NCBI GenBank assembly: GCA_012519745.1
Contig: JAAYPO010000028.1
Location: 1-45,951, forward strand
Source of the DNA: Clostridiaceae bacterium
Lineage (GTDB): Bacteria; Bacillota; Clostridia; Acetivibrionales; DTU013
Length of the DNA stretch: 45,951 nt
Reading direction: 5' to 3'
Position numbers and translations under genes: made by a program. A model generated the notes under the pieces. That model did not search any database. It was not told the origin of the DNA and saw only the letters and a program-made list of their open reading frames with translations. This document shows positions 8,039-38,214 of this stretch, one piece after another. Each line of letters opens with the position of its first letter. Positions within the stretch are counted from its first letter, which is position 1.

Positions 8039-11000
8039 ATGGATGACAGGAACAATACAGCCGACAGCTTGCTCGATGTCTTAAGAGAACGGGAAAAGGA
8101 ACTCAATTGCCTGTACAAGGTGGACAGTATCCTGGGCAACTATCATCTGACCCTTCCTGAAATGCTTGAAGGCATCATACAGGTGCTGCCGTCAGGATGG
8201 AGGTTCCCCCATATATGCCATTCAAAGATCGTCTATAAAGGCACCAGCTATCAGACCGATGGCTTCGTTGCCTCTCCCATATCCGAAACATGTCCGATAA
8301 AGGTGGACGGTAATGTCGTCGGAAGCATTGAGATAGTATACACTCAAAATGTCCCTAAAACTGAAGACGGCTATTTTCTTGAGAGAGAGAGCATGCTTAT
8401 CAGGGCCGTTGCCGACCGCATCGGCCAAATGCTCATATACCGCCGAATGAAGTCGGTAATGGACGATTGGGAAACTGCAAGGGAAAAACAGTCCTCCGAC
8501 GAAATCAGGCTCAATGAATGGGAGATCATCGTAGACTTCCTGCGTCAGAACGATCATGCGCTGCTGAGGCACATATGCAGGAAGCTCACGAACCATCTGC
8601 TTATAAGCGGTGTGATCGAGGCATCCGGGATATTTACGTCAGACAGCTCCGGAAGACAGGATGACAGCGGCTATGTCAATTTTCCCTCCGCAGTGGGACC
8701 AATAGATAATATCATCAACATAAGCCATAAAGTATTCGAACTGGCCTCAAGAAATATGGCCGGCACAGAGATCACCTCCCGTGTAAAGAGGTGGATACAG
8801 GATGAAAAAGCATACTCCCTCGTAAAGGCTATCGGAAGCATTGCTCCCACCTTGAGGAACATCATAGAGGAAATCAGGAAGCTGCAGAATCTGTCGGATA
8901 TGAACGAACTGCAGTACTCCCCGAAGGAGCGCTGGATAAATGTAGGTCTCATCCGACGCTTTCTGTCCGACAGAGCAGATTTTATCAATACTGCCAAGCA
9001 ATATCTGAATACCAGGGACTTCTTTGATATAATAAACAGGATAATATATCCCATCGGGAGTCAGGGAAGGCTTGGCGGCAAGGGCTCCGGCCTGTTCCTT
9101 GCCCAGAAGATACTGGAAAATGAAGCCGGGAACCTCCCCAGATATTTTTCGGTAAAATACCCTAAGACATGGTACATAACCACCGATACAATAACAGAGT
9201 TTCTACAGTACAACAATCTGGAAGAATTAAATGAGCAAAAATATGGCGACCTTCAGGAAATCCGCATTGAATATCCCAATATCATCCACCTGCTAAAAAG
9301 CGCCAAAATGCCTCCCGAGATTGTAAGGAGCCTGTCTGCGGCCCTTGACGATCTCAGCGAAAATCCTTTGATAGTGCGCAGCTCCAGTACACTTGAGGAT
9401 CAATCCGGAGCAGCCTTCTCGGGAAAATATAAAAGTCTCTTCCTGGCAAATCAGGGGACTAAAAAGGAAAGACTTGATGCACTGATAAATGCCATCCTTG
9501 AAATATATGCTTCGGTATTCAGTCCCGATCCTATCCAATACCGGGCAGAAAGAGGGCTTTTAGATATCCATGAGGAAATGGGCATACTTATACAGGAGGT
9601 TGTAGGCAAAAGAGCAGGAAAATACTTTTTCCCGCTGTTTTCGGGTGTTGCCTTCAGCAATAATGAATACAGATGGTCCCCAAGGCTCGAACGCGAGGAC
9701 GGCCTGATCAGGCTCGTTCCAGGGCTCGGCACAAGAGCCGTCGACCGAGTGGGCGATGATTTTCCCGTCATGATCTCACCGGGCAAGCCGGGAATAAGAG
9801 TCAACATAGTACCGGAGGAAATAAAGCGTTACTCGCCAAAGATGATGGATGTGATAGATCTTCAGAGCAATTCCTTCAAGACGGTGGAGGTGGCGGACCT
9901 TCTGCGGGAATGCGGAGATGAGATCGAAAACGCCCACCGTATCGTATCCATAATGGAATATGATCATATCAAAAAGCCCAACAGGCTGGAGATCAATTAC
10001 GACAAGGACGAGCTTGCCGTTACCTTTGACGGTGTCATTTCCGATACCTCTTTTACAAAGCAGATCAGCACCATACTAAAAACCCTTCAGGAGAAAATGG
10101 GGACTCCTGTGGATATAGAGTTCGCCTCCGACGGAGAGGATATCTACCTGCTGCAGTGCAGGCCTCAAAGCTTCAGCCGGGAAAGCGTACCTCCATCCAT
10201 TCCAAAGGATATATCCGACAGGGACAAGATTTTTTCGGCAAATAGGTTTATTTCCAACGGACTTATCCGGAACATATCCCATATCGTTTATGTCGATCCG
10301 GAGGGCTATGACAGTCTGGCTGAGCTGGATGACCTCAGGACCACAGGAAAAATAGTCGGTATGCTCAACTCGATCCTGCCAAAACGTCAATTCATACTTA
10401 TAGGCCCCGGACGCTGGGGAAGCCGCGGGGATATAAAGCTGGGCGTGCCGGTGAGCTATTCGGAGATATGCAATACCGCAGCGCTTATAGAGGTAGCAGT
10501 CAGAAAGAAGGGCTACCTTCCGGAGCTGTCCTTCGGGACTCATTTCTTCCAGGATCTTGTGGAGGCCGATATAAGATTTCTTCCTTTGTATCCCGATGAA
10601 GACGGCACGATTTTCAACAGGAGATTCTTTACGAGATCTCCCAATAAACTCAGGGAAATACTGCCGGAATATAGCAAATTCGAGGATACCGTCAGGGTGA
10701 TCGATGTACCCGAGACATCTGACGGCCGAATGCTCAGCATTGCCATGAACGCAGATCTGGGCGAGGCCATCGGCTACCTCGCCGCTCATACTGTCGAGTT
10801 GCCAAAACCCATGCATCCGGTTGAATTCGATGACCATCACGGAGATGAACACTCCTGGAGGTGGCGCAGCTATATGGCCGAACAGCTGGCGGCAAGCCTT
10901 GACCCCTTATTGTTCGGAGTGAAGGCTGTGTACCTGTTTGGAAGCGTGAATAACGGGACTGCCGGACCAAACAGCGATATAGACCTTATCATCCATTTCT

Positions 11001-11349: not shown

Positions 11350-11787
11350 ATGTTCTACAAAAAAGTGATAGCAGGTGTTTTATTAGTCGGCACCCTGGTC
11401 CTGTCATCGTCATTCTCTTATGCAGTCCCAGACAGCGGAGCCGGCTGTCCGGGGAATGGGCCGTGTCCGGCTGCAGACTCGCCGGCCGATCCGGCGCAGG
11501 TCCATGCCAGGATAAAAAACGCCCTTGACGGCCTGGTCAGGGACGGCACTATATCCCAGGAGCAGGAAAATGCAGTCATAAAGGCTTTTGAGGCCAAAAG
11601 AGCACAATTTGAAAAGGCGCGGGAAGAGCTGAAAAAGGAAGGCAAGCTCAGGGACGGCACCGGCAAGCGCCGCAAAAGGCCCTTCGTGAGAAGGCATGGA
11701 GTTTTGAAGGACCTGGTGGATGACGCAGTGATCACAAGGGAGCAGGCTGACGCAATAAGAAAGGCGATCAGGAAAAATGCAGAGTGA
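11350..11787 (+). CDS. Small secreted protein with two repeated helical motifs (unknown function)
   Basis: The 145-residue product begins with a typical signal peptide: MFYKK, a hydrophobic core, then SYAVPD with a likely cleavage after Ala. A Cys/Pro/Gly-rich stretch with two Cys residues follows. The mature part has two related segments, LVRDGTISQEQENAVIKAF (about residues 57-75) and LVDDAVITREQADAIRKAI (about 123-141), separated by a Lys/Arg/Glu-rich charged linker. Such LxxDGxIxxxQxxAI units occur in uncharacterised exported Clostridia proteins. GAGGAG lies 9 bases before the ATG. I do not recognise a specific family. Confidence 0.8.
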   Translation: MFYKKVIAGVLLVGTLVLSSSFSYAVPDSGAGCPGNGPCPAADSPADPAQVHARIKNALDGLVRDGTISQEQENAVIKAFEAKRAQFEKAREELKKEGKLRDGTGKRRKRPFVRRHGVLKDLVDDAVITREQADAIRKAIRKNAE

Positions 11788-11816: not shown

Positions 11817-11925
11817 GACAATCAATGCTAATTGTCAGCCGGCGGAGGAATGCCTCACTGCGCGGCAAGGTTCCCGGCTGCTGAACACCGGTAACCCCAT
11901 GCTCGCATATGCCGGATCACGGTGT
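11817..11925. other. Cluster of predicted stem-loops, possible structured RNA, unassigned
   Basis: Three consecutive inverted repeats lie in 109 bases: GACAAT (11817) with ATTGTC (11831); CAGCCGG (11836) with CCGGCTG (11874-11880), enclosing a GAGG/CCTC hairpin; and ACACCG (11885) with CGGTGT (11920-11925). The region is GC-richer than the AT-rich element that follows. It matches no riboswitch class I can recall well enough to name. It lies between the plus-strand secreted protein gene and the minus-strand GH8 gene, so it would be 3' to both. Confidence 0.35.
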
Positions 11926-12064
11926 GCAGAATTTCAAGTTTTGGGCACATAATACTGTTTGAGAGTTTCCATAACTCTGCAATATACGTATTATGTGCCC
12001 AAAATCATATAATTCTATATTAAATTCAACGAAATCACGCCCAGAACCTGAAAATTTGCACACC
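11921..12064 (-). mobile_element. 144-bp terminal-inverted-repeat element (MITE-like), copy 1
   Basis: The ends are imperfect inverted repeats of about 26 bp: the left end 11921-11946 begins GGTGTGCA, and the right end 12039-12064 reads TGCACACC at its tip. Inside, a perfect 17-bp inverted repeat (11939-11955 with 11987-12003) flanks a GAGAGTTTCC palindromic core. It codes for nothing. An equally long element at 36417-36560 aligns with the reverse complement of this one over its whole length, with the core GAGTTATGGA-ACTCTC and the ends conserved. It sits 48 bases past the GH8 stop codon. Confidence 0.7.
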
Positions 12065-12112: not shown

Positions 12113-13252
12113 TTATTTCCATATCCTGTAATTGCCGCTCAATGCCAGCATAGCAAAAAGATACAGACAATTGTCATAATAACGCCTGACACCGGTACGA
12201 ACGGGTGTATTCCAGAACAGCTCAACGCATGTCCTGGAGTTTTCATTGTCGGTGGCAGCCAGTGACGCCATGGCATTGGTCGCAATAAGCCCTACGGGAT
12301 GGAGTGCCTTTTCCTCCAGCGGTGTTCCGTCTATAGCGTATATACGATAATCAGCGTTGCTGCCCATCGGCGCAAAAAATGCCTGTATCCTGTCGGCTGC
12401 AGTCCTCTGCCACTCATCCTTTCCAAACCATTCATAATCCAGCCCTATATTTGCGGCTACCCTGTAGGAGTCACTGTAGAAATGATGATGCCCATAGTCC
12501 CATTCCGCCTTGTGAGGTCTGCCGTCAAATTCTGCATATTCCGGCGCAAGTCCCGTCACGGGATGGCAGGCCTTTCTCAGATACTCCCTGCTGGCATCCG
12601 CCGCTTCACACCAGAAGGCGCTGTCCCCGGGATCGCCCAATATTGAAAACAGCTCATAAAAGTGTGGCAAATGATAAGAGGGATCTGTCCAGGGAGTTTC
12701 AGGGACAAACTTGATCAGCTTGTTTGCGGGATCCCACATTGGATGTCCGACTCCGTCCTCCCCCTTGTGTACGCATTCCCTTAATATGTATTTTGCCTGT
12801 CTGCTGTAGTCAAAGGGCTCGGGTCCGTCTCCCCATCGCTTTGAGGCGAAAAGCAGCGCCATAGCGAAGAACTCCTCCCCATCCGGGGCAGGGCCATCAG
12901 CCCTCCTGGTTCCATCGGTATTCAGAGACCAGGCAAAATAGCCTCTATACCGACCCTTCTTATGCTGCATATATTTCCAGGACCATTTCCAGATACGGTC
13001 AAACTCTTCCTTTTTATCCATCTGCACGCACATCATCATGCCGTAGGACATACCCTCCGTGCGGACATCATTGTTGCCGGTATCCAGCAGATAACCCATA
13101 TCGTCGCCCACCGGGTAATATATCCTTGTATCCTCATCTCCGTAAAACAGCTGCTGCCATGTATCTTCGACCCTTTTGGCTATCTGGTCCTCATCGTAGC
13201 CGAATTCACCGAACAGGTTCCTGTATTTTCCCGTATAAAAAGCACCTTTCAT
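12113..13252 (-). CDS. GH8 reducing-end xylose-releasing exo-oligoxylanase (Rex-like)
   Basis: The 379-residue protein has no signal peptide, so it acts in the cytoplasm. It resembles Bacillus halodurans Rex, which releases xylose from the reducing end of xylo-oligosaccharides. The catalytic-acid motif NDVRTEGMSYGMMM (Glu66) and the aromatic barrel motifs FAWSLNTDG, PAPDGEEFFAMAL and EWDYGHHHFYSDSYR are visible. The conserved His associated with Rex activity appears in ALHPVGLIATNAMASLAA. A GGGGG SD precedes the ATG. No other xylan gene is in the window, so imported xylo-oligosaccharides would have to come from systems elsewhere. A 144-bp repeat element follows its stop. Confidence 0.92.
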   Translation of the reverse strand: MKGAFYTGKYRNLFGEFGYDEDQIAKRVEDTWQQLFYGDEDTRIYYPVGDDMGYLLDTGNNDVRTEGMSYGMMMCVQMDKKEEFDRIWKWSWKYMQHKKGRYRGYFAWSLNTDGTRRADGPAPDGEEFFAMALLFASKRWGDGPEPFDYSRQAKYILRECVHKGEDGVGHPMWDPANKLIKFVPETPWTDPSYHLPHFYELFSILGDPGDSAFWCEAADASREYLRKACHPVTGLAPEYAEFDGRPHKAEWDYGHHHFYSDSYRVAANIGLDYEWFGKDEWQRTAADRIQAFFAPMGSNADYRIYAIDGTPLEEKALHPVGLIATNAMASLAATDNENSRTCVELFWNTPVRTGVRRYYDNCLYLFAMLALSGNYRIWK

Positions 13253-25459: not shown

Positions 25460-26374
25460 TCAATCGAATTTCAAAAACCTTTCGCTTATGGCTCTGGCAG
25501 CATTGTAGCCCATTTTCTTCTGTCTGTGGTTCATGGCGGCTACCTCCACGATTATTGCCAGATTTCTTCCGGGTCTTACCGGTATCACAAGCGATGGCAC
25601 CGAAATGCCCAGTATGTCTGTGAATTGATCCTCAAGACCAAGCCTGTCATATATTTTGTGCTCCTTCCAAAGCTCCAGCATGATCACCAGGTTTATATTC
25701 TCCTGCAGCTTCACCGAACCCATTCCATAAAGGTTCTTGACATCCAGTATGCCTATTCCCCTGATCTCTATGAAATGCCTTATGTTCTCCGGCGCCGAAC
25801 CCAGCAGCGTCCTGTCTGAAACCCGCCTGATCTCAACTATATCGTCAGCGATCAGCCTGTGTCCTCTTTTTACCAGCTCCAGTGCTGTTTCGCTCTTGCC
25901 TACACCGCTCTCTCCCAGAATGAGTACTCCTTCTCCGTACACCTCCACAAGCACACCGTGCTCCGATATCCTCGGTGCAAGCATCACATTCAGATACCGT
26001 ATCAGCCCGCTCATGAACCTGGATGTGATATCATTTGTCCTGAGTATGGGTATATCATACTTTTTCGATACCTGCATCATCTCTTCAAATATCTCCAGCT
26101 CTCTGGCAACTACAATGCACGGAAATCCGGTGCGGAAAAATTCATCCAGCCTTTTGTGTCTGTCCTGCGGTGACAGACTTGCAAGATATGTCATTTCCAC
26201 CTTTCCTATTATCTGTATCCTGTCCGAGCCAAAATACTCCATGTAGCCCGACAACTGAAGCCCGGGCCTGTTCACATCGGAGGTAGTGATCTCTATATCT
26301 CCCGCCGTCTCGCCGCCGCATATCGCTTCCAGCTGAAATTCCTTCATCAGCTCACTGAGTTTGACAGTAAACAT
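25460..26374 (-). CDS. hprK: HPr kinase/phosphorylase
   Basis: The 304-residue bifunctional enzyme phosphorylates Ser46 of HPr with ATP or pyrophosphate and also dephosphorylates it, setting carbon catabolite repression. The N-terminal domain spans 1-130. The kinase domain has His139, the P-loop GESGVGKS (154-161), Asp178-Asp179 and the family signature EIRGIGILDV (203-212). GGGAGG lies upstream of the ATG. It is the first gene of the cluster that runs to whiA. A long AT-rich palindrome and a -10-like TATAAT lie upstream. Confidence 0.97.
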   Translation of the reverse strand: MFTVKLSELMKEFQLEAICGGETAGDIEITTSDVNRPGLQLSGYMEYFGSDRIQIIGKVEMTYLASLSPQDRHKRLDEFFRTGFPCIVVARELEIFEEMMQVSKKYDIPILRTNDITSRFMSGLIRYLNVMLAPRISEHGVLVEVYGEGVLILGESGVGKSETALELVKRGHRLIADDIVEIRRVSDRTLLGSAPENIRHFIEIRGIGILDVKNLYGMGSVKLQENINLVIMLELWKEHKIYDRLGLEDQFTDILGISVPSLVIPVRPGRNLAIIVEVAAMNHRQKKMGYNAARAISERFLKFD

Positions 26375-26426: not shown

Positions 26427-26481
26427 ATTATAACACATTAATTGAAAGAAAATTTTTCGGATGTACAAAAATTTTCTTTCA
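26427..26481 (-). promoter_or_regulatory. hprK upstream region: -10-like box and 15-bp perfect inverted repeat
   Basis: A TATAAT box reads on the minus strand at 26432-26427, 53 bases before the hprK ATG. Its -35 region is poor. Just upstream, TGAAAGAAAATTTTT (26443-26457) is perfectly inverted at 26467-26481 around a 9-base centre. The placement over the expected -35 region suggests an operator; a hairpin function is also possible. Confidence 0.45.
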
Positions 26482-26487
26482 TCAGAA

Positions 26488-26530
26488 GTGTTTCAACAAG
26501 GCGGCAAACTTATATCGCTTCGCTATATAC
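26488..26530. repeat. GTGTTT-hairpin dispersed repeat, copy 2
   Basis: The head reads GTGTTTCAACAAGGCGG and the tail TCGCTTCGCTATATAC, matching copies at 2247 and 32845. AGGCG can pair with CGCTT using a G-U pair. Its tail runs into the minus-oriented 41-bp repeat block. Confidence 0.55.
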
Positions 26531-26604
26531 GTAATCCAACTGGATGAATTTGCAGGTAAGGGCTTCACCAAGGAATCCTAGTGGATGAATTTTCAAGTAG
26601 GGGC
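26531..26604 (-). repeat. 41-bp repeat block, minus orientation (one full and one partial copy)
   Basis: Reading the minus strand, one unit runs 26604-26564 and the next begins at 26563, keeping the 41-base period. The second copy loses identity after about 26532. Each carries AAATTCATCCA followed by GGAT. The same unit recurs in plus orientation at 26699-26831. Confidence 0.8.
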
Positions 26605-26698
26605 AGAAACTGCTATCCACTACAGTAACATAATGTGAATCAACACGAATTATGTAACCCATTTATAGATAATATACAATATCGCGACAGTCTCTCCG

Positions 26699-26831
26699 GC
26701 CCTTAATTGCAAATTCATCCACTAGGATCTCTTGATGCTGCCCTTACCTGCAAATTCATCCTCTAGGATCTCTTGATGCGGCCCTTACCTGTAAATTCAT
26801 CCATCGGGATCCCCTGCTGCTGCCTTTATCT
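26699..26831 (+). repeat. 41-bp repeat block, plus orientation (three copies and a fragment)
   Basis: Units begin with GCCCTTA or a close variant at 26699, 26740, 26781 and 26822, a constant 41-base period. Each contains AAATTCATCC, four bases, then GGAT, giving a short ATCC/GGAT inverted repeat. With the minus block this forms a large inverted arrangement around a 94-base spacer that holds no gene. Confidence 0.85.
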
Positions 26832-26883
26832 TATGATTTGACCAGTTGGATGCCTTAAAACTGCTTCCATTATCAAATATCCA

Positions 26884-26936: not shown

Positions 26937-27014
26937 TCTATTTGTACTCGTATATAGGTGTATCTGTACTCTATAAAGGTCTATTTGTACTCTATATAGG
27001 TCTATTTGTACTCG
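26937..27014. repeat. 21-bp tandem repeat duplicating the 3' end of atpD
   Basis: Units start at 26937, 26959, 26980 and 27001. Each holds CTATTTGTACTC or a near copy. The last unit contains the true atpD stop and its final Glu-Tyr-Lys codons; the others repeat those codons and the stop downstream, as untranslated copies. Confidence 0.85.
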
Positions 27015-27658
27015 TAATGATGGGCCTGCTCAAGCATCATATCCTTCACCTTCATCAGCCTGGTCAGGTTGCCCCTTTCATTTTCATCCAGCTTCATCAC
27101 GATATACTTTATAGTTTCCTCCAGGTTGGGTATCAGCACATATTCAAGTGCGTTGACCCTCCGGCGCGTCTTTTCTATCTCATCGGCCATGAGCTGTGCC
27201 GATTTCTCCAGCTCGGCCAGCTTCAGGAGCGTCGGTGTCAGCTCAGAAAGCGTCGCAATAGCGACATCGAGCTCACTTGACGTATTGGCAAAGCCATATG
27301 GATAGATATCACCGGCGTCATCGGATTCCGTATGGAATTCCAGCACAGGTACATCCACACTCATAATATTTTTGGTCGATGCGCTCAATTCCACCTTCTG
27401 TTTCGGGAACATAAGCGCTTCCTCCAGCAGCTCAGTATTCATCTCCGCTCTTGCCATCACAAAACGCGAATGCACAAGCTGAAGCTTCTCCTCAGCTTCC
27501 TCACGGAGGGTCTTGTTCTCCCGGACAACCTCCAGAAACCGCTTCATCAGCTCATCGCGCTTGTCCTTTAAAAGCTTGTGTCCTCTCCTTGCTGTCCTAA
27601 GCCTCTTTTTCAATCCGGTCAGGACCATCCGGGTCGGGTTGACATTCATTCGGGCCAT
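27002..27658 (-). CDS. atpD: V/A-type ATPase subunit D (central stalk)
   Basis: The 218-residue protein is the central rotor shaft of the ATPase. The N-terminal helix motif [20 protein letters not shown] and the long helical body with [11 protein letters not shown], then the C-terminal helix [19 protein letters not shown], are diagnostic. AAGGAG precedes the ATG. It is the last gene of the operon, 15 bases after atpB. Its last codons have been duplicated downstream as a 21-bp tandem repeat. Confidence 0.96.
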
Positions 27659-36101: not shown

Positions 36102-36175
36102 TGGAGCGGGTGATGGGAATCGAACCCACGCAATCAGCTTGGAAGGCTGATGTTCTACCATTGAACTACACCCGC
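36102..36175 (-). tRNA. tRNA-Gly (anticodon TCC)
   Basis: The minus strand folds as a standard cloverleaf: acceptor GCGGGTG with CACCCGC, anticodon stem TCAGC with GCTGA around loop CTTCCAA (anticodon TCC), and T arm GTGGGTTCGATTCCCAT. CCA is encoded (36104-36102). It is second in the transcript, after tRNA-Gly(GCC). A hairpin at 36181-36204 (AGAAACCAG with CTGGTTTCT) lies between the two tRNAs and may guide processing. Confidence 0.95.
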
Positions 36176-36209
36176 ATGCAAGAAACCAGATAAACTGGTT
36201 TCTTTACAG

Positions 36210-36284
36210 TGGAGCGGGATACGAGATTCGAACTCGCGACTTTCACCTTGGCAAGGTGACACTCTACCACTGAGTTAATCCCGC
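36210..36284 (-). tRNA. tRNA-Gly (anticodon GCC)
   Basis: The minus strand gives acceptor GCGGGAT with ATCCCGC, anticodon stem TCACC with GGTGA around loop TTGCCAA (anticodon GCC), T arm CGCGAGTTCGAATCTCG and an encoded CCA. It is first in the tRNA operon, 36 bases after a consensus -10 box. Confidence 0.96.
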
Positions 36285-36416: not shown

Positions 36417-36560
36417 GGATGCACAAAATTCCAGTTTTTGGGTAAAATTTAATTAAATCATTGAAAATGTTCTATGATGAGGTAACATAATACAAATAAT
36501 TTTGAGTTATGGAGACTCTCATAATAGTATTTGCGCCCAAAAGTTCAAATTTTGTGCACC
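36417..36560 (+). mobile_element. 144-bp terminal-inverted-repeat element (MITE-like), copy 2
   Basis: The left end 36417-36442 begins GGATGCACAAAATT; the right end 36533-36560 is its imperfect inverse and ends TTTTGTGCACC. The core GAGTTATGGAGACTCTC (36504-36520) is shared with copy 1 at 11921-12064, which lies in the opposite orientation and has the same length. No coding capacity is seen. The surrounding region, 36351-36764, holds no gene. Confidence 0.7.
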
Positions 36561-36819: not shown

Positions 36820-38214
36820 TCACTCCTCATTACTGAGGTACTCGTCGATCGCTTTTGCGGCTTTTTTCCCCGCACCCATGGCCAGGATCACGGTAGCGGC
36901 GCCTGTAACTGCGTCGCCTCCTGCATAGACGCCATCCAAACTGGTTGAGCCCGTCTCTTCCTCGACTATTATACCGCCCCATTTATGCGTCTCAAGTCCC
37001 GGTGTGGTGGATTTTATCAGCGGGTTCGGTGACTGCCCGATAGCTACGACCACAGTCTGCACATCAAGCATATGCTCAGAGCCCTTTTTAGCTACCGGTC
37101 TCCTCCTGCCTGATGCATCCGGCTCCCCAAGCTCCATTTCTATACATTCCATTCCCTTGACCCATCCGTCATCGGTACCGATGATCCTTGTGGGGTTGGT
37201 CAGCAGCTTGAATATGATTCCTTCCTCCCTGGCATGATGCACTTCCTCAAGTCTTGCAGGCATTTCAGCCTCAGAACGCCTGTATACTATATATACGTTT
37301 TTGGCGCCAAGCCTCCTTGCACACCTGGCTGCATCCATGGCCACGTTGCCTCCGCCTATCACGGCCACACTTTCCGTCACTCTGACAGGGGTATCATATT
37401 CGGGGAATTTATATGCCTTCATCAGGTTTATCCTGGTCAGGAACTCATTGGCTGAGTAAACTCCGTTCAGGTTTTCGCCCGGTATGCCCATAAAGCTGGG
37501 CAGTCCGGCTCCGCTTCCTATGAATATCGCCTGGTAGCCCTCTTCCTCCAGCTCCGCCAGCGACAGTACCTTACCTATGACCATATTGGTCATGATCTTT
37601 ACTCCCAGGCTCCGTACCGATTCGATCTCCTTCTGCACCAGTGCCTTCGGGAGCCTGAATTCCGGAATACCGTACATCAGCACGCCTCCGGGCACATGGA
37701 AGGCTTCGAATATAGTGACCTCATAGCCCTTTTTCGCCAGATCTCCGGCGCAGGTCAGCCCCGCAGGACCTGACCCGATCACTGCCACCTTTTTGCCGTT
37801 CCTCTCGACAGCATTTACAACATTCTCGCGATTTGCCATATACCAGTCGGCGACAAACCTCTCCAGCCTTCCTATCCCCACCGGCTCTCCCTTTTTACCT
37901 CTTACGCAAAGCTGCTCACACTGGGACTCCTGTGGGCAGACTCTTCCGCAAATGGCGGGCAGACTGTTTGTCTCCCTTATCTTGGCATAAGCGCCTTCAA
38001 AATCCCCCTGACTGACCAGCTTTATGAACTCGGGGATCTGGACGTTGACAGGACATCCGGCAACACACGGCCTTGTTTTGCAGTGCAGGCACCTGTTCGC
38101 TTCGCTGACAGCCATCTCGTCATCATAGCCGAGAGCGACCTCTTTGAAATTGCCGCTTCTGATCTCAGGGTCCTGTTCGGGCATCCTTACCTTTTTCAAT
38201 GACATATCAGGCAT
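36820..38214 (-). CDS. nfnB: NADPH-dependent glutamate synthase-type flavoprotein, NfnB subunit
   Basis: The 464-residue protein has an N-terminal iron-sulfur domain with CLHCKTRPCVAGCPV and CGRVCPQESQCEQLCV, then two FAD/NADPH Rossmann folds (VAVIGSGPAGLTCAGDLAKK near 143 and VAVIGGGNVAMDAARCARRL near 285) and a final GGDAVTGAATVI. Alone it would be called a glutamate synthase small subunit. Directly downstream of nfnA, with an 8-base overlap, it is the large subunit of NADH-dependent reduced ferredoxin:NADP oxidoreductase. This flavin-bifurcating enzyme couples NADH, reduced ferredoxin and NADP. GGAGGT is seven bases before the ATG. Confidence 0.93.
   Translation of the reverse strand: MPDMSLKKVRMPEQDPEIRSGNFKEVALGYDDEMAVSEANRCLHCKTRPCVAGCPVNVQIPEFIKLVSQGDFEGAYAKIRETNSLPAICGRVCPQESQCEQLCVRGKKGEPVGIGRLERFVADWYMANRENVVNAVERNGKKVAVIGSGPAGLTCAGDLAKKGYEVTIFEAFHVPGGVLMYGIPEFRLPKALVQKEIESVRSLGVKIMTNMVIGKVLSLAELEEEGYQAIFIGSGAGLPSFMGIPGENLNGVYSANEFLTRINLMKAYKFPEYDTPVRVTESVAVIGGGNVAMDAARCARRLGAKNVYIVYRRSEAEMPARLEEVHHAREEGIIFKLLTNPTRIIGTDDGWVKGMECIEMELGEPDASGRRRPVAKKGSEHMLDVQTVVVAIGQSPNPLIKSTTPGLETHKWGGIIVEEETGSTSLDGVYAGGDAVTGAATVILAMGAGKKAAKAIDEYLSNEE

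Follow-up and report, generated by a model that had tools for sequence, protein, structure and literature searches.

ERIC, BOX and RUP-type repeats are imperfect palindromes of about 100-150 bp that lie in intergenic DNA, and we know of no description of helix-step lengths or phased end-unit arrays in them. MITEs, such as the Correia elements and other IS-derived bacterial MITEs, are short, contain no ORF, carry terminal inverted repeats, are dispersed in intergenic DNA and are present or absent among relatives. Very short transposons depend on helical phase, as is known from engineered constructs of IS50/Tn5. Some mobile elements have ends that hold several binding sites. The ends of IS21 (IstA/IstB) finish in CA and each carry at least two direct repeats, both needed for integration; the ends of Mu and Tn7 also contain several copies of the recognised sequence (PMC10122671). 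REPINs of Pseudomonas fluorescens, which are associated with RAYTs, are inverted pairs of a short repeat at a fixed distance that form clusters and tandem arrays in intergenic DNA (PMC3116915).

The repeat family described here shares features with each of these systems. It has all of the MITE features listed above. Unlike MITEs, its end units multiply outward in tandem, its length changes in steps of one helical turn and its internal core is conserved. As in IS21, Tn7 and Mu, several direct copies of a short unit can stand at each end, inverted between the ends and with a terminal CA, but their number varies among copies. It resembles REPINs in its inverted units at fixed distance, its clusters and its tandem arrays, and differs from them in that its unit is not palindromic. 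Its size, imperfect palindromy and intergenic position recall ERIC, BOX and RUP-type repeats, to which its sequence is unrelated. A literature search for this family, of partial coverage, found nothing. Tentatively, these DNA elements may form a family that has not been described before, either mobile or involved in organising the chromosome, and no younger than the bacterial family that carries it. One binding unit would be repeated outwards from a conserved core, in register with the helix; the helix would set which lengths survive, and the ends would multiply without a linked gene.

Three elements in the window

The window, which is the whole stretch of 45,951 nucleotides analysed here, contains three members of the family. 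Their parts are as follows.

11921-12064, plus strand: element 1, type 1, 144 bp (search of the window, folding and covariance model)
11921-11946, plus strand: left arm (end unit) of element 1, GGTGTGCAGAATTTCAAGTTTTGGGC
11943-12000, plus strand: inner inverted repeat of element 1, GGGCACATAATAC ... GTATTATGTGCCC, in type 1 only
11970-11995, plus strand: conserved core palindrome of element 1, CATAA ... TTATG (alignment A3, helix 2, 93% of cells paired)
12039-12064, minus strand: right arm (inverted end unit) of element 1, GGTGTGCAAATTTTCAGGTTCTGGGC
26541-26844, plus strand: element 3, type 2, with tandem end units
26541-26563, plus strand: outer left end unit of element 3, TGGATGAATTTGCAGGTAAGGGC
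26582-26604, plus strand: inner left end unit of element 3, TGGATGAATTTTCAAGTAGGGGC, 41 bp past the outer left unit
26699-26721, minus strand: inner right end unit of element 3
26740-26762, minus strand: second right end unit of element 3, a further 41 bp out
26781-26803, minus strand: third right end unit of element 3, a further 41 bp out
26822-26844, minus strand: fourth right end unit of element 3, degenerate, a further 41 bp out (recognised by eye)
36418-36560, minus strand: element 2, type 1, 143 bp

The initial annotation had reported elements 1 and 2 as two 144-bp copies of one element in opposite orientation, with imperfect 26-bp terminal inverted repeats and no coding sequence. Both are present where it placed them, apart from the start of the second, which lies one base further on (36418). 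The length of 144 bp is right for element 1 but not for element 2. The opposite orientation and the absence of coding sequence were confirmed, and arms of about 26 bp recur in the aligned copies. Element 1 is located between the converging genes 11350-11787 (plus) and 12113-13252 (minus, GH8). Element 2 is located between two tRNA-Gly genes (36102-36284, minus) and gene 36820-38214 (minus). Element 3 had been overlooked; it was matched at 26580-26723 by the covariance model R2, whose training set included this copy, and it is intergenic, between genes 25460-26374 and 27002-27658 (both minus).

Compared with dinucleotide shuffles, elements 1 and 2 have folding z scores of about -9 and -5, and 0 of 200 shuffles folded as well. 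BLAST does not link the two elements directly. The R2 profile, built from 24 relatives without element 2, nevertheless finds it in the window at E of about 5e-21. This value, for a copy outside the training set, together with the dozens of copies described below, rules out a chance similarity of two AT-rich sequences.

Copy number and distribution

Further copies are abundant in the genome of the window. BLAST with element 1 retrieved about 17, nearly all of 143-146 bp, and the covariance model R1, followed by the broader R2, raised the count to at least 60 as judged from alignments fitted to the model. R2 also has matches in all four genomes of the same genus (G001-G004), with 8-78 each at E ≤ 0.01, where one copy can be counted on both strands. 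Its matches are weak in three other genomes of the same taxonomic family (G005-G007), and five genomes that belong to other families of the order gave no match. A strict pattern for type 1 ends occurs in 2 of 58 genomes of the order, 24 times in the window's own genome and once in a relative. Two pattern scans of viral contigs gave no match, and the single match of a pattern scan in one genome collection, on an Oligoflexia contig, was taken as chance. BLAST against plasmids gave chance matches only. Most copies are old: in the window's genome, the nearest neighbour of a copy is about 73% identical at the median.

The copies are intergenic: only 2 of 41 loci overlap an ORF of at least 90 aa. 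The elements had been described as lying at operon ends. This is true of the 11921 site with its convergent flanking genes, but it is not general, since across the 41 loci simple ORF calls, which were wrong for at least one of them (the 11921 site), show no preference for a gene configuration and no orientation bias.

Arms, core and flanks

A typical copy is 143-146 bp long and consists of terminal inverted repeats of about 26 bp around a conserved core of about 90 bp. The end unit is about 23-26 bp long, with a consensus of approximately aGTGTnCAAAATTTCAAGTAAnGGGC, also written TGTnCAAAATTTCAAGTAAnGG. It starts with TG, ends with CA and does not form a palindrome on its own. The window's genome contains at least three arm types, in which both arms have changed together.

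Type 1 arm: GGTGTGCAAAATTTCAAGTTCTGGGC
Subtype 1b arm: GGTGTGCAAAAACCTCATTGTCTGGGC
Type 2 arm: AGTGGATGATTTTTCAAGTAAGGGC
Type 3 arm: ACTGTACAAAATTTCAAGTAAAGG

Types 1, 2 and 3 can be aligned end to end and, judged from their sequences, look homologous, roughly as nnTGnnCAAAATTTCAAGTnnnGG. The core segment CATAA-n16 to n18-TTATG is common to all three, and this first core palindrome is mostly lost in subtype 1b. A second core palindrome, in its best form TTTTATTGAA...TTCAATAAAA, stands out in type 2, subtype 1b and the copies from G002-G004, and it is weak in types 1 and 3. A diverged type of its own is found in the genome G001 (L195, L202 and L210); its ends read ACTGTACCrTTTTTGGATTTCTGGG and its units are spaced 31 and 62 bp apart.

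The outer boundaries differ among copies. The left flank of type 1 has just a loose GGAG-like motif ahead of the unit. One or two GGGMAATA motifs lie 6-9 bp outside one end of subtype 1b and of many copies in relatives. These motifs, GGGAAATA or GGGCAATA, are seen beyond one end only and sometimes form a TTATTTCCCnGGGAAATAA palindrome. They occupy the left flanks of copies in G002-G004 (for example L219, L233 and L253) and the right flanks of type 1b copies (for example L099, L101 and L147). They may mark a favoured target sequence, or else belong to the element as its outer portion.

Evidence for duplex DNA rather than RNA

The initial annotation had offered a family of small RNA-forming repeats as one reading. 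A structured RNA, or a regulator acting at the RNA level, encoded by the repeat would be consistent with the strong folding and with compensatory changes. In alignment A3, which was aligned by sequence alone with the structure picked by looking at these same sequences, 124 cells kept their pair through changes on both sides compared with 52 in shuffles, and 84% of cells were paired compared with 32-46% once the partner was slid. Such changes alone would be expected of an RNA stem as well as of a duplex site present twice, and strand symmetry tells the two apart. An RNA stem tolerates G-U pairs and not A-C, while a binding site in duplex DNA treats both alike. In the first 26 pairs of the arms of 106 copies, G-U occurs 92 times and A-C 120 times; therefore, the arms behave as duplex DNA. 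The length steps and extra-unit spacings described below point the same way. Next to tandem genes, the core points each way equally often (15:15, by crude ORF calls), and Rfam searches at the gathering threshold and at a relaxed one gave no family at gathering score, with all matches far below it. The RNA reading was rejected on the G-U and A-C counts, the helix-step lengths and the lack of strand bias, and we regard it as very improbable. Length quantisation and the comparison of G-U with A-C together provide a test, needing sequences only, that separates synapsis of duplex DNA from mechanisms based on RNA or single strands.

Lengths and extra end units follow the helical repeat

Among 106 copies, 81 are 142-146 bp long. 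The other 25 measure 85, 123, 124, 134 (two copies), 135 (three copies), 138, 154-157 (15 copies) and 168 bp, so that 22 of them are at 123-124, 134-135 or 154-157 bp. The 138-bp match is a weak one and perhaps not a genuine copy. About ten copies differ from their nearest relatives by a clean net indel of +10/11 or -10/11 bp. These indels are not one inherited event, because their positions are spread over the core (about 29, 35, 77, 80, 93, 100, 103 and 118). One copy is 22 bp longer than its nearest relative, and a deletion of 61 bp is the sole clear exception to the steps. A Rayleigh test on the 25 off-lengths gave R of about 0.78 at 10.25-10.5 bp; because the copies are in part related to each other, no p-value is relied on. 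Nothing in a covariance-model search would favour multiples of 10.5 bp.

The end units are spaced in a similar manner. Many type 2 copies carry additional end units beyond the arms, oriented like the arm of the same side. In the window's genome extra units stand at 40-41 bp (20 times) or 80-82 bp (eight times), and in G001, on its own diverged type, at 31 or 62 bp. In same-genus relatives, the extra outer unit is inverted instead and stands at a fixed distance. The arrangement of multiple direct repeats per end, inverted between the ends and bounded by TG...CA, is confined to type 2 copies and one type 3 copy. Simple slippage may have produced the tandem end units, but it leaves the quantised core length unexplained.

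The length steps and the spacings of 31, 41, 62 and 82 bp together imply that the face of the helix on which the sites of one side lie is fixed relative to that of the other side. This suggests that a putative protein, most likely a transposase, grips both ends at once. We consider it an even call that the family is a MITE-like non-autonomous element whose multi-site ends, of the IS21/Tn7/Mu kind, synapse in helical register. Each end would present one or more protein-binding units of about 23-26 bp, inverted around the conserved core of about 90 bp. A DDE transposase with multi-site ends, acting in trans, would bind the units and pair both ends on the same face of the helix. With ends about 145 bp apart, pairing would need bending and the correct twist, and only lengths in helical register could be paired and spread. 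Length variants of about 10-11 bp and extra units at about 31, 41, 62 and 82 bp would be expected because register is needed at this end separation. A constraint of this kind applies to engineered short IS50 transposons; the present family seems to be a natural one that records it in its length distribution, and does so across species.

Helical phasing, variable unit number, a conserved core and intergenic position would fit a binding array of the host equally well. In this main rival explanation, the elements are sites of DNA looping or chromosome architecture. A protein of the host would occupy both the inverted units and the palindromes of the core and build a small phased loop, or a nucleoprotein cluster, in the space between genes, and the sites would have spread by duplication or recombination with no dedicated transposase. 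The core is more conserved than mere MITE filler needs to be, which speaks against the MITE-like reading. The lack of preference for a gene configuration (crude ORF calls) and the occurrence of several co-diverged end types in one genome speak against host looping.

Empty sites and signs of movement

The gap between the genes that flank element 1 (11350-11787 and GH8) contains no element at the orthologous site in G001, G002 and G003 (L254, L255 and L256). Both neighbouring genes are present there; the orthologue of the 11350-11787 gene was recognised by eye. The site of element 3 has no element in G001, an element of a different type in G004 and an apparent remnant, judged by eye, in G003. 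In G003, two copies from separate loci share an identical 145-bp overlap that extends to a contig end, and their left flanks are wholly unrelated.

These observations, together with the dispersed intergenic inverted-repeat copies, favour the MITE comparison made in the initial annotation; the target duplication and the transposase with matching ends that belong to such an element were not found in the searches made here. In a scan for target-site duplications in 101 mostly old copies of uncertain outer boundary, no signal could be told apart from that of the inverted repeat, nor was the 5-bp duplication of IS21 seen. The age of most copies and their variable boundaries also count against a MITE-like element. 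Host looping gains from the missing transposase and target duplication and from the close pairs L165/L180 and L122/L124, which are segmental duplications with flanks included. It is opposed by the orthologous sites that are empty or hold different types, and on balance we judge it unlikely. The binding protein would tell an orphan transposon lineage, whose transposases are possibly extinct or distant, from a host-organised array that behaves like a mobile element.

Search for a transposase with matching ends

Under the MITE-like reading, the family would have moved by transposition with a transposase encoded elsewhere. Among the candidates examined in the family's draft genomes, which are fragmented, no transposase gene flanked by end units was found. 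Several contigs stop within a copy, and with drafts in such pieces the assembly could lack an autonomous copy. IstA (NF033546) has no match above cut-off in G000-G006, where G000 is the window's genome, which is a difference from IS21; three copies above cut-off in G007 lack the end unit. An IS481-like gene of the window's genome was rejected as the mover since it has its own ends.

A three-gene transposon encodes a DUF6431 protein, an rve protein with a Mu C-terminal domain and a TniB-like AAA ATPase (L238 2-2871; L239 321-3041). It is present only in G001 and G002, not in G000. Its appearance is that of a small Tn7-like element, and GGACA-type sequences recur close to its ends. These ends differ from those of the family, and it was rejected as the mover as well.

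Two Y1_Tnp genes in the window's genome, one for 311 aa and one for 353 aa, are RAYT-like in sequence (L187 934-1869; L189 1465-2526). Elements of REPIN type would move as single-stranded hairpins by such a RAYT (HUH/Y1) enzyme, and the inverted end units at fixed distance, the clusters and the tandem arrays resemble REPINs (PMC3116915). Neither RAYT-like locus of about 3 kb holds an element of the family, whereas REPs sit in the DNA flanking RAYT genes. The hallmark REPIN unit, a short palindrome tagged GTAG or GGAG, is not what the unit consensus shows. The helical-turn length steps and G-U being no commoner than A-C indicate recognition of duplex DNA. REPIN-like movement is thus quite improbable, and both it and a structured RNA are less likely than the MITE-like reading and host looping.

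Other features near the elements

Another dispersed hairpin repeat, AAAGAAAATTTTTC...TGTAnAAATTTTTCTT followed by GTGTTTCAACrAGG, occurs at 26441-26520 of the window and at about 605-680 of L187. A short tandem repeat of about 22 bp (CTATTTGTACTCTATATAGGT) lies at 26940-27015 of the window, near the type 2 array. At about 360-402 of L147 (G000:C51, about 8225-8267), GGGGACGGTCCTGTGGGGACGGT repeats that resemble the REP type abut the left end of one element. The window also contains a gene for a SpoVA protein, and the host bacterium is probably a spore-former.
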